Assembly: GCA_017480785.1 (NCBI GenBank)
Contig: JAFURZ010000006.1
Location: 62,001-126,000, forward strand
DNA from: Bacteroidales bacterium
GTDB taxonomy: Bacteria > Bacteroidota > Bacteroidia > Bacteroidales > P3
Length of the DNA stretch: 64,000 nucleotides
Direction of reading: 5' to 3'
Part shown: piece after piece, positions 23,776 through 63,083 of the stretch
How positions within the stretch are numbered: the stretch's first letter is position 1
Layout of the letters: each line of letters opens with the position of its first letter
The notes under the pieces: model-generated
What the model saw: only the letters and a program-made list of their open reading frames with translations
Databases searched by the model: none
What the model was told of the DNA's origin: nothing
Made by a program: the position numbers and the translations under genes

Positions 23776-23860
23776 CCTCCGACACAACTCCGTAACAACT
23801 CCGACACAACTCCGACCGTTTTACGCTTTTTGCCCGTAGAACGGTCGGAGGAGCTACGGA
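23776..23860. repeat. 11-mer repeat element (copy B)
   Basis: Tandem ACTCCGACACA-type units, then the conserved core GTTTTACGCTTTTTG, then a degenerate right arm (ACGGTCGGAGGAGC). Same family as 1646, 45291 and 62902. Confidence 0.75.
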
Positions 23861-45290: not shown

Positions 45291-45352
45291 TGTCCGACAC
45301 AACTCCGACACAACTCCGACACAACTCCGACAGTTTTACGCTTTTTGTCGGA
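45291..45352. repeat. 11-mer repeat element (copy C), in the lipoprotein leader
   Basis: Three and a half ACTCCGACACA units, then core GTTTTACGCTTTTTG. TCCGACA (45326-45332) pairs with TGTCGGA (45346-45352). The right 11-mer arm is missing. It ends 12 nt before the preferred start of the fimbrillin-like lipoprotein and is in frame with it. Confidence 0.8.
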
Positions 45353-56638: not shown

Positions 56639-57949
56639 ATGCACAAACGTAACGAAGACGGAAAGATTTACCACGGCGGATGGCAGCAAGGCAGCGTCAT
56701 CCAGCAGAAACTGGACGGCCCCATTGGCGACGGCAGCATCGACTACCCCAACGGCGACCGATTCGAGGGCTCCTTCCACCTCAGCTATGCCCACATCAAC
56801 GGACCCGCCTATATGGCCGACGGCACCTACACCTTCGCCAATGGCGACCGGATTGAGCACTGCTGGATTGACGGGAACGACGCCCTGTACGGCGTCTACG
56901 AGACCCTGCATGCCGACGGCACCCGCAGCATCGCCATGTGGTACAAAGGCAAGCGCGTGGGCCTCGAAATCGAGGTAGACCGGAAGACCTGCAACTACCG
57001 CGAGCGGGGCTTTCTGGTACATTCCTTCAGCCAACTCAACTTCAACTACACCTACACCCCCGGCAACAACGGTTTCAACCGGCTGGAGGTGACGCTGTAC
57101 AACGGCATGCGCCTGGTGCACTGGTTCAAGAACAACGACAACGAGCCAGACCTCTTCTGCGAGCTCTACTACCCCGACGGCGACTGGATGGAATACTGGG
57201 GCTGGAACGACCTGAAAGAGTTCCGCCCCTGGGACGGCGTCTTCACCTACCACCGCTGTGCCGACGGCATGAAGAAATACGACACCTGGAAAAACGGCAC
57301 GCCGCAGGAGCAGTACGACCACAACACCTGGGAGCATGACGAACACGGAGCACGCCGCATCCACGTGGAGCTGGACCCCTACGGCAATCCCTTCGGCCAC
57401 GACATCCTCCTTTGGCCCGACGGCCACACCCAGTGGGGCTACGGCTACCACTACGAGGGCACGCAACAGGACGGCATCCCCGAAGGGAGGGGCGTCTTCT
57501 ACGACGACTCCGGGCGCCGCTACGAGGGCTTGTTCCACAAGGGCCTCTGCCATGGCGAAGGCACCTACACCTTTGGAGACATCGTGCAGAGCGGCCGCTG
57601 GGAGCAGGGGCGTTTCCTCGACGGCAAGGAGCCCGCGGCTCCCGTCATGCTGAAAGTGCACTGGACCCACACCCACTGCAGCCCCTCGGGCGAGTTCCCC
57701 GACGGGGAAGAGGAATGGACCATCGAGGCCAAACCCGGCGAACTCAACCTGCCGAAATACACCAGCGGCATCACCATCGAACTGCTCGAGCCCGACCGCA
57801 TCATCCTCTCCTCCTACGGCCAGCGACTCAAGACCCTCACCCCCGGCAAGACGGTGGGCTTCCTCGACGAGGTGGAAGGGCGCGAATACAGCGACGGCAT
57901 CGTCTACGAAAGCGACGAATACAATACTAAAATCACTTGGTTGACATGA
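56639..57949 (+). CDS. MORN-repeat protein
   Basis: A 436-residue protein starting MHKRNEDGKIYHGGWQQG. MORN-type repeats are visible near the N-terminus (GDGSIDYPNGDRFEGSF, ADGTYTFANGDRIEHCWI) and again at about 270-330 (PEGRGVFYDDSGRRYEGLF, CHGEGTYTFGD). The C-terminal ~90 residues are a separate beta-rich domain (GEEEWTIEAKPGELNLP, VGFLDEVEGREYSDG). MORN repeats mediate membrane or protein contacts; no enzymatic domain is seen. Its stop overlaps the start of the NAD kinase gene by 4 bp. Confidence 0.8.
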   Translation: MHKRNEDGKIYHGGWQQGSVIQQKLDGPIGDGSIDYPNGDRFEGSFHLSYAHINGPAYMADGTYTFANGDRIEHCWIDGNDALYGVYETLHADGTRSIAMWYKGKRVGLEIEVDRKTCNYRERGFLVHSFSQLNFNYTYTPGNNGFNRLEVTLYNGMRLVHWFKNNDNEPDLFCELYYPDGDWMEYWGWNDLKEFRPWDGVFTYHRCADGMKKYDTWKNGTPQEQYDHNTWEHDEHGARRIHVELDPYGNPFGHDILLWPDGHTQWGYGYHYEGTQQDGIPEGRGVFYDDSGRRYEGLFHKGLCHGEGTYTFGDIVQSGRWEQGRFLDGKEPAAPVMLKVHWTHTHCSPSGEFPDGEEEWTIEAKPGELNLPKYTSGITIELLEPDRIILSSYGQRLKTLTPGKTVGFLDEVEGREYSDGIVYESDEYNTKITWLT

Positions 57950-58799
57950 AAATAGCACTCTACTACCGACATATCGACGACAACGACCGGCCGGCCCTCG
58001 ACCAGCTGACCGCCACCCTGTGCGGGAAAGGCATCGACACCGTCACCATCCACGACGGCGACACGCTCGCCCCCTGCGACTTCCTCTTCAGCATCGGTGG
58101 CGACGGCACCCTGCTCAGCACGGTGCAGTTTGTCCGGCCCGACCGGCCCGGGGACTTCCCGCCCGTCCTGGGCATCAATTTCGGCCACCTGGGCTTCCTG
58201 ACGACCGTGGGCAAGGAAAACCTCTACACCATGGTCGAAGAGCTCCTGGAGGGGCGGTTTACGCTCGAGGAGCGCACCCTCCTCCAACTACACACCACCC
58301 ACTCCCCACTCCCCACTACCCACTACCCACTACCCACTCCCCACTCCCCACTCCCCGCTACGCCCTCAACGAGGTGTTCGTCCACCGCACCGAGGAGGCT
58401 TCGCTGCTGCGCACCGAGCTCCATGTCGACGGCCGCTATGTGGCCACCTATGCCGGCGACGGCGCCATCGTGGCCACCCCCACCGGCTCCACGGCCTACT
58501 CGCTCTCCTGCGGCGGCCCCATCCTGACGCCCGACTCGCGCGGTCTCCTCATCACCCCCATCTCGGCCCACACGCTCACCCTCCGCCCCGTCATTGTGCC
58601 CGACACCGTCGAGCTGCACCTGCGCGTGGGCGACGACTGCTTCCTGGGCTGCGACTCCAGCCGCACCACCCTCGCGGGCGGCAGCGAGCTGACACTCCGC
58701 CGCGCACCCTTCACCATCCGCCTCGTGCGACTCGGCAGCCAGAACTTCTTCACCGCCATCCGCGAGAAACTCATGTGGGGGACGGAGATTAGGTTATAG
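57946..58799 (+). pseudogene. nadK: NAD kinase, frame interrupted at a heptanucleotide repeat
   Basis: Encodes NAD kinase (NAD to NADP), normally the sole and essential NADP source. Frame 1 (from ATG 57946) carries FLFSIGGDGTLL (ATP/NAD site, residues 51-55), INFGHLGFLT and LEERTLLQL, then enters eight 7-bp units and drifts into nonsense, stopping at 58527. The second frame resumes at YALNEVFVHR (58359) and continues with DGAIVATPTGSTAYSLSCGGP and a complete C-terminus to 58799. Both halves look intact, so one extra unit or two fewer would restore one frame. This may be true phase variation, a real mutation or an assembly error. It is coupled to the MORN gene by ATGA. Confidence 0.85.
58294..58356 (+). 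repeat. Heptanucleotide tandem repeat inside nadK
   Basis: Eight perfect 7-bp units at 58301-58356: ACTCCCC x2, ACTACCC x3, ACTCCCC x3, preceded by a degenerate unit ACCACCC (58294-58300). Seven is not a multiple of three, so each unit change shifts the frame. Confidence 0.95.
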
Positions 58800-58829
58800 T
58801 TTACAGTTTACGGTTTAACGTTTAAGTTT

Positions 58830-61380: not shown

Positions 61381-62832
61381 ATGATGAAAAGAGCCGTTCC
61401 CCTTGCTGTATTGACGATGCTGCTACTGTTTGCACCGCCCGTGGGCGCGCAATATGGCAGTTACTATTACCACCGTGTGGGCGACACCATCGAATGGAAA
61501 CCCAACAACGGGTATTTTTCATGGTGGGAATTCGAATACTATCACGAAAACAACCTTAAAATTAGCATTGATAAAAACTACTTAGGAACCCCCACAGGTC
61601 ATGACTCCTGCCGGATACTGCAATATTTCTACACGCCGACCCCGTTGAAAATCATTGGCGTGGCTGGGTCCAGCATCAAATATCGCGCCGATACCTATGT
61701 GCCAATCCCTAATTTTCTTTCCGCCAGCGTGACCGGTGGCGAGCCTGAATACTATCTCATCTACGACGCCGACAGCACCGACTTCGTCCTGAAAGCGCGT
61801 GTCGAATGGAACTCATGTGACCCACACCGGATGGTACACCTGTGGACTCACAAAGGTGTTCAATTCTGGGGCAGTGGCAGCAGTATGGATGACAGTTGCT
61901 GCAATACCAACACTGAAGAAATATATCTCCCGATTTTTGAATACTACTTCGACGAGCCCATCTACGTCACCGACTCGTTCTATGTTGGAACCACGACCCG
62001 CAATCTTGCACGTGCCTCATCAGATATTTACGCTATGCCCATGGTCCCGGTGACCCGTGGCTACTCAGATTGCAACAACGATAACATAGCTTTCTACATC
62101 AATGCTTGCTACCCCGTCAATCTCACCCAGAAAGGTATCGGAAGTACTTGGCGGCCCAATACTATGACTGCATATCCTACCGACCAATGGTGGTGGGCGC
62201 ACTCCTCTGTCGACCATGATTTGTGCCCGCTGCTGATTTACCCCATCATCCAGGTCGACACAACCCTGCCGCCACCCGACCTGTGCGATTCGCTACGCAA
62301 TGTACAGGTCACCAACACAGACTCCACCGCCATCGTCACTTGGGATAATTTCCCGAACTACAGCAGCGTGTATCTCAAATACGGCTATGGGAGCCCCAAC
62401 CTATGGCAAACCGTCGACGTCACAGGCAACACCTCGTACACCATCACCAATCTCGTGCCCGGACAACGCTACGGTGTCACGATGAAGGCCGTGTGCGAAA
62501 TCAGCAAAAAGGAGACGCCCTGGACAGAACCCGTCCACTTCTACACCGTCCCTGGCACTACCGCCATCGAGGAGGGACCACAAAACCCGGCATCGCCCCT
62601 CGCCGCCCAAACCTTCCTCCAGCCCAACCCCGCACACGGCAATACCACCGTCTCCTCTTTCTTCAACCTGAGACGCATCGAGATTGTTGATATCCATGGC
62701 GTGATGGTCTACAGCGAACCCGTCCACGGCCACCGCGTCACCATCCCCCTCGACGGGTTGCGCAGCGGGACCTACATCGTCGCCATCCACACCCACGACG
62801 GCACCACCCACAAGAAACTTATCGTTCAGTAG
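61381..62832 (+). CDS. Secreted protein with FN3 and T9SS type A sorting domains
   Basis: A 483-residue exported protein with a signal ending at PPVGAQ (about residue 24). Residues about 25-300 form an unrecognised Cys/Trp/Tyr-rich domain (RVEWNSCDPHRMVHLWTHKG, DDSCCNTNTEE). Residues about 305-395 are fibronectin type III-like (LRNVQVTNTDSTAIVTWDNF, TSYTITNLVPGQRYGVTMKAV). The end is a type A sorting domain (LQPNPAHGNTTVSSFF, RIEIVDIHGVMVY, LRSGTYIVAIHTHDG, KKLIVQ). It should be exported by T9SS. The substrate or ligand is unknown. Confidence 0.85.
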   Translation: MMKRAVPLAVLTMLLLFAPPVGAQYGSYYYHRVGDTIEWKPNNGYFSWWEFEYYHENNLKISIDKNYLGTPTGHDSCRILQYFYTPTPLKIIGVAGSSIKYRADTYVPIPNFLSASVTGGEPEYYLIYDADSTDFVLKARVEWNSCDPHRMVHLWTHKGVQFWGSGSSMDDSCCNTNTEEIYLPIFEYYFDEPIYVTDSFYVGTTTRNLARASSDIYAMPMVPVTRGYSDCNNDNIAFYINACYPVNLTQKGIGSTWRPNTMTAYPTDQWWWAHSSVDHDLCPLLIYPIIQVDTTLPPPDLCDSLRNVQVTNTDSTAIVTWDNFPNYSSVYLKYGYGSPNLWQTVDVTGNTSYTITNLVPGQRYGVTMKAVCEISKKETPWTEPVHFYTVPGTTAIEEGPQNPASPLAAQTFLQPNPAHGNTTVSSFFNLRRIEIVDIHGVMVYSEPVHGHRVTIPLDGLRSGTYIVAIHTHDGTTHKKLIVQ

Positions 62833-62901: not shown

Positions 62902-62991
62902 CAACTCCGATACAACTCCGATACAACTCCGAGGATGGTCCGACTGCAGTCGGACTATCCTCGGAGTTGTATCGGAGTTGTGTCGGAGTTG
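62902..62991. repeat. 90-bp near-perfect palindrome of 11-mer units (copy D)
   Basis: The left arm (62902-62946) and right arm (62947-62991) are each 45 nt and complementary with two mismatches and no loop. The outer parts are CAACTCCGATA units; the centre is GTCCGACTG-CAGTCGGAC. Confidence 0.85.
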
Positions 62992-63083
62992 TTACGGAGA
63001 TATGACGGCTTATTATCATATTAGCATATTGGTTTTCAGTGTATTGTTTACAACATGACCGCAAGGGGGCCTGTCAATGGGGC

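Follow-up and report, generated by a model that had tools for sequence, protein, structure and literature searches.

The question raised by this locus is why the NAD kinase gene (nadK) of a gut Bacteroidales bacterium should be split between two reading frames at a run of heptanucleotide repeats. The gene lies in a stretch of 64,000 nucleotides (hereafter the window; positions 62,001 to 126,000 of contig JAFURZ010000006.1, assembly GCA_017480785.1, here G000:C15:62001-126000) from a genome, G000, of 2.25 Mb in 19 contigs that is 92% complete. An earlier note, made from the letters of the window alone, had located the break at the repeat and proposed slipped-strand switching of the central NADP supply, naming an assembly error or a second NAD kinase as plainer alternatives. 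On balance we lean towards a different answer, i.e. that the array represents one expanded arm of a palindromic element, from a mobile-looking family with heptamer arms whose members lie in frame inside gut Bacteroidales genes, in the manner of Rickettsia palindromic elements (RPEs), and that its out-of-frame length most likely arose by slippage.

Profile searches confirm that both halves of nadK are present, on the plus strand and in different frames. The N-terminal part (57946..58297), which holds the GGDGT motif, matches Pfam NAD_kinase (PF01513; E 1.5e-11); the C-terminal part (58357..58799), which holds the TPTGSTAY motif and the NE/D motif that we take to bind NAD, matches NAD_kinase_C (PF20143; E 3.8e-26) as well as positions 141-291 of 292 of the NAD kinase model NF002521. 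Exactly between them, at 58298..58356 of the same strand, lies an array of the 7-bp units CTCCCCA and CTACCCA (Tandem Repeats Finder: 8.4 copies, 96% matches), which begins in the frame of the N-terminal part and is free of stop codons on the nadK strand; the two spellings alternate, and the longest perfect run is 3.9 units. The C-terminal part is offset by +2, and the earlier note had correctly reckoned that the gain of one unit or the loss of two would restore the frame. Since any 7-bp array encodes the identical heptapeptide in all three frames, a change in unit number matters only for the frame downstream of the array. A codon-usage scan of the window flagged one of 14 candidate junctions as a frame change without start or stop, at 58302-58358; with this single flagged break general indel noise is not visible, which disfavours general sequencing noise as the cause. 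At the threshold used, three period-7 arrays were found in the window, against a mean of 0 in ten Markov sequences of the same length. The second NAD kinase for which the earlier note had left room was not found when the genome was searched with the PF01513 and PF20143 profiles (one match each), and nadK gave no match in the plasmid collection (near mode).

The heptamer recurs throughout the genome. A pattern of three successive CCCACTN units occurs 57 times, against 0 for the pattern read backwards, and once its hits had been merged by hand with those of a palindrome search (0 in the palindrome control) the heptamer was placed at 31 positions, 23 of them palindromic. A typical palindrome measures about 76 bp and consists of an arm of four AGTGGGT units and one of four ACCCACT units, separated by a core of about 20 bp (AGC-N14-GCT); three copies fold as long RNA hairpins (z of -7.1, -7.1 and -5.3), and an Rfam search of four loci returned a single match, to an unrelated small RNA family. 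The nadK array can be read, from its units, as a remnant of the right, C-rich arm of such a palindrome. Leaving aside nadK, a longer element discussed below and a hit at a contig end, 28 places were examined, of which all except two (L210 and L260) were flagged as lying inside an open reading frame (ORF) that is open on both sides. One of these 26 is actually broken (L265, see below) and another, 5' of a MiaA domain, cannot be judged (L269), leaving 24 of the 28 in frame inside an ORF, with L234 counted as a minus-strand ORF. The existence of a family at 31 places, in frame at 24 of 28, rules out a lone microsatellite in nadK as the principal explanation.

The inserts sit within recognisable proteins. 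Pfam domains bridge the insert at 11 of the 24 in-frame places and flank it on both sides at a further five (16 of 24 together); at the remaining eight a domain lies on one side or no domain bears on the insert. The bridged ORFs encode NrdD, UvrD, LacZ, RdgB/Ham1, RadA, ValRS, IleRS, DapF, PanC, a dihydroorotase-like amidohydrolase and, judged by coordinates, a UPF0004/radical-SAM protein, and those with domains on both sides LeuRS, UvrA, RarA/MgsA, UvrC and an A2M protein. The palindromic copies encode a near-identical peptide of about 26 residues, of the type KVDSGECVVDSSRGQVLPTTHYPLPT; the insert peptide predicted within ValRS, RadA and DapF is of the type VVDSSRGQVLPTTHYPLPT, and one-arm copies read LPTTHYPLPT or a near variant. 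The G-rich arm would contain an in-frame TAG. In 20 of 21 copies the sense strand has a changed base there, a count that follows partly by construction, the copies having been preselected as lying in open ORFs; the mirrored base on the other strand is intact in 20 of 21 (the 21 include the unjudged L269, and the match for L214, L219, L259 and L262 differs by one unit). This asymmetry between the strands is what translation would predict, and the in-gene palindromes are presumably translated.

Relatives show what the same sites look like without the heptamer. Seven genes were compared with their counterparts in up to five relatives, and in all 30 comparisons the frame is kept, with the insert absent or another family in its place (RadA, for which no locus was kept, is not among the seven; the rows for genomes G115 and G084 align across the joint). 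Only a short native spacer stands at the ValRS, PanC, NrdD, RdgB and DapF sites in the 5, 5, 5, 4 and 4 relatives found, respectively, and the ValRS insert corresponds to a gap in the solved T. thermophilus ValRS (1gax). At the IleRS and PyrC sites several relatives carry other repeat families (for example AGTGTTC arms in G113 and GGAAAGT arms in G118), and at the LacZ and C-terminal radical-SAM sites G115 has CGACCTC arrays where the present genome has AGTGGGT or CCCACTA. The presence of different families at matching sites indicates that the same gene sites have been filled more than once. Some native codons are replaced at the insertion sites, and the palindromes would appear to transpose. 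Of 119 genus genomes, 26 (the present one among them) contain the CCCACT pattern, and eight of nine CCCACT arrays fetched from other species look, by eye and without Pfam, to be in frame inside genes (L307 is unclear).

The nadK site itself behaves similarly. A search of the genus with the C-terminal part of nadK gave a match in 109 of 120 genomes, and the loci fetched provided 109 distinct nadK sequences, to which six were added from the GTDB r220 collection; from the latter 80 nadK records were kept, all from uncultured Bacteroidales or Bacteroidetes, many of herbivore rumen or gut origin and three of them Candidatus Colimorpha. Compared solely between the GGDGT and TPTGSTAY motifs, with six loops unparsed and loops shorter than 28 nt unscored, 114 of these 115 sequences are in frame, the exception being that of the window. 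The stretch between the ERTLL and ALNE motifs, in which the array lies, is hypervariable and reaches 72 residues. In four other sequences (L057, L080, L061 and L016) it is likewise built of heptamers, each of a different unit and each in frame, those of L061 and L016 being more degenerate. The best match, L057 of G115 (82% identity in the C-terminal part), has a CGACCTC array in this loop, and an AlphaFold model of it, computed with 40 genus sequences, has a mean predicted local distance difference test (pLDDT) score of 89 that dips to 66-77 in the loop, which forms the turn joining strands 108-122 and 137-147. The alignment with solved NAD kinases bridges the loop by a gap. In the model, then, the stretch that holds the array looks to be a permissive beta-hairpin turn, even though the conserved NE comes directly after it. 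As separate observations, L057 has a second insert, of (P)TSDFRLPTSDF type, upstream of its GGDGT motif, and the 72-residue loop is that of L016 (G050), with several repeat units in frame.

A second gene of the same genome is broken in the same way. A nucleotidyltransferase-like gene (PF14907; about 1100-2180 of L265, also within L405, G000:C11:48000-58500) is out of frame at a CCCACTA array of 9.4 perfect units, the same heptamer as in nadK, its N-terminal part matching profile positions 3-166 and its C-terminal part 173-246 of 249 in two frames. Upstream of it stands an ABC2_membrane gene and downstream a Wzt-type ATPase gene; an IVP gene (see below) lies between, and a sugar transferase gene nearby, an arrangement that identifies the locus as a Wzm/Wzt ABC-type surface-polysaccharide export locus. 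Such loci are often phase-variable, and the PF14907 gene is a candidate phase-variable surface gene. With 8.4 and 9.4 units, nadK and the PF14907 gene hold the two longest of 29 arrays measured and are both out of frame; a random draw of two arrays would yield exactly this pair with a chance of 1 in 406. Since the PF14907 gene is broken likewise, instability of unit number in this genome is plausible.

The sequence of events that we envisage would begin with the in-frame insertion of a palindromic element into a gene, producing a loop of about 26 residues. In NadK one arm would have been left in the beta-hairpin turn just 5' of the NE motif and have grown to about eight units, and this long tract may then have slipped, so that the assembled unit number is out of frame; working NadK would come from cells or strains with a frame-keeping array length. 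Several points weigh against this account. The nadK array comprises one arm, and whereas the one-arm copies L223 and L268 retain a TGCTA core end it has none, so its descent from a palindrome rests on the shared heptamer. No clear target-site duplication was seen by eye at five insertion sites. By longest perfect run (3.9 units) the nadK array is not the second longest, and its interruptions should slow slippage. Moreover, if the slip was purely accidental, it is awkward that the allele assembled for an essential gene should be one out of frame.

The long arrays are those expected to slip, and are also those likeliest to be miscounted by an assembler. An assembly or consensus error, in which the array would belong to the same element family with a true unit number that keeps the frame, and either the assembler or a mixture of strains would have led to a miscount here and in the PF14907 gene, is the strongest competitor, albeit one that we regard as unlikely. 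That all other nadK sequences compared are in frame, that NAD kinases are called essential in PMC7660225, that both broken genes are at the longest arrays, and that the genome is fragmented into 19 contigs would all fit such an error. However, a codon-usage scan with one flagged break in 64 kb gives no sign of general indel noise, and a 59-bp array with differing units should be resolvable by ordinary reads; we place slippage ahead of assembly error in view of the otherwise clean window and of the unit variants, which should make the array easier to assemble.

An evolved phase switch, whereby the array is kept because subpopulations with NadK on and off benefit the species, seems to us improbable. 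The unit number does set the frame, and the PF14907 gene of the polysaccharide-export locus is broken likewise, but the arrays are inserted elements spread across many genes, the nadK of the nearest relatives is in frame with other arrays or none, and the genome search provided no second NAD kinase to cover the off state. The dedicated switch of NADP supply suggested in the earlier note is thus not supported, given an array that belongs to an inserted-element family in frame at most of its places, and a nadK loop that in four other sequences holds unrelated heptamer arrays without loss of frame. What holds of the note's interpretation is the place of the break at the array, the failure to find a second NAD kinase and the control of the frame by unit number. 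As the source of the break, a side effect of an inserted element or a mistake in assembly is more probable than a switch that evolved as such.

Recoding, i.e. ribosomal frameshifting or bypassing within the array such that full-length NadK is made from the assembled sequence, we consider very improbable. A shift anywhere in the array would serve, all three of its frames giving the same peptide, and hairpin elements bypassed by the ribosome are known in Magnusiomyces mitochondria, according to PMC6649704; yet the relatives and the 24 other places keep the frame, which would be needless if the element were bypassed, and inspection by eye revealed no classical slippery site. The alternative of a permanently lost nadK, with another source of NADP, fits the out-of-frame gene and the failure to find a second copy but is scarcely credible, given that both halves are conserved (82% identity to L057 in the C-terminal part, which has no internal stop) and the 114 other nadK sequences are in frame.

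Protein-coding palindromes are reportedly a feature of Rickettsia, to judge from the title of a 2002 paper by Ogata. Like RPEs (Ogata et al.; PMC10969869), the heptamer palindromes are present in multiple copies, lie in frame in unrelated genes and encode a conserved peptide, and they are absent from the same sites in relatives. They differ from RPEs in length (about 76 bp, against about 150 bp in PMC10969869), in phylum, in arms made of four 7-bp units, in having a longer, IVP-bearing form with these same arms, and in unit families that vary from one species to the next and take each other's place at shared sites. They may be called RPE-like in architecture and behaviour, and we do not file them as RPEs. 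The heptamer repeats of Xanthomonas and Nostoc, as presented in PMC4692102, also have G-rich 7-bp units at many genomic places with four units preferred, whereas the heptamers here form inverted pairs inside genes. With the heptanucleotide phase-variable tracts of Haemophilus influenzae nadK shares a repeat whose unit number sets the frame (or expression), the mark of a contingency gene; it differs in that it encodes a core enzyme, NAD kinase, and the comparison covered one genome per species.

A candidate longer form connects the palindromes with the 23S_rRNA_IVP (IVP) gene family, PF05635. At G000:C8:168138-168643, a span of 506 bp, four-unit heptamer arms with similar core ends surround an IVP gene, and G092 has a like element of 452 bp whose right arm is more degenerate. 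The genome has seven PF05635 genes, six of them between inverted short-unit arrays whose unit differs from copy to copy (the seventh, L257, is without arrays). When the 230-bp flanks on either side were compared with each other, an inverted match scoring at least 15 was present at 24 of 30 IVP loci of the genus; among controls, 4 of 583 ORFs and 0 of 690 random stretches had one. In a sample of the order, nearly all of it from other families, the figure was 14 of 25. These loci are the genome's own copies and the best-scoring ones, not a random set, and short flanks removed 6 of 36 (genus) and 4 of 29 (order). The family is present in 117 of the 119 genomes searched from the genus, in 85 of 119 from the order and in none of 14 control genomes. 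Rfam gave no rRNA match at the L251 locus, and the other six own copies, read by eye, adjoin protein-coding sequence rather than lying in 23S rRNA.

The nearest match of the longer form is the intervening sequence (IVS) of Coxiella burnetii, in which, according to PMC4990558, an S23-type (23S-rRNA-IVP) gene lies between inverted repeats with a stem of 28 bp, like four heptamers, and for which the discussion proposes a possible mobile element. According to the same text that IVS resides in 23S rRNA and is excised by RNase III, whereas the copies here stand beside protein genes and have tandem-unit arms, and short forms lie inside coding genes. As the copy checked with Rfam is not in rRNA, we do not file the longer form as an IVS.

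The short palindromes look, from their arms and core ends, like miniature forms of the IVP element, and the IVP gene may move them. More broadly, and tentatively, we propose that IVP (four-helix-bundle) genes mark an unrecognised, Bacteroidales-wide class of mobile elements that have inverted arrays at their ends, built of a unit of about 6-12 bp peculiar to each copy, and whose miniature palindromes would insert in frame into housekeeping genes as translated loops, be replaced there by new unit families, and leave slippage-prone tracts able to turn core genes such as nadK on or off. A rival that concerns the mover alone, and that we find somewhat less plausible still, is that the palindromes owe their spread to IS200-like (RAYT) transposases, or to template switching where short homologies occur, the IVP gene being a passenger. 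Template switching would accord with the replacement of several native codons at insertion sites where no duplication was seen. The genome does possess three Y1_Tnp genes, but at their loci the palindromes are of other kinds and heptamer words number 0, 0 and 1, which disfavours RAYT as mover; an IVP gene, by contrast, lies between palindrome-like arms. Two loci with IS200-like transposase genes (L407, G000:C14:7456; L408, G000:C11:50999) are flanked by GCCCCGTAGGGGC-type and CGTGGG...CCCACG palindromes, an arrangement that is RAYT/REP-like.

The element family is of more interest than the nadK break itself. Some two dozen coding palindromes in one gut Bacteroidales genome, together with a candidate IVP-bearing element, would give the puzzling IVP/S23 family a context, and make a role of this family in mobility testable. 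Heptamer arms, once inserted, may by chance give core genes slippage-prone tracts, a possibility that would bear on the origin of contingency loci and on how frame breaks in metagenome-assembled genomes are read. No description of such elements in Bacteroidales was found in the literature searched by title, abstract start and term counts, a search that left most subscription papers outside and that is weak evidence of novelty.

Further repeats of related kind were observed. A second 7-bp array, of GTTTAC type, lies directly 3' of nadK (58790-58825), with the kind of unit that also forms the arms of the IVP gene at G000:C11:53666. The UvrA ORF (L275) contains several copies of the peptide SLTPGPSPNGEG or near variants and the RadA ORF (L274), which is also the locus of the Rfam match above, one similar copy, and these appear to represent another inserted palindrome family. 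Within the window, arrays of an 11-bp unit (CAACTCCGACA and its complement) occur at 1645-1741, 23777-23816, 45293-45332 and 62902-62999, and twice they are paired in inverted orientation (1645-1689 with 1702-1741, and 62902-62932 with 62961-62999), an architecture that resembles that of the heptamer palindromes.
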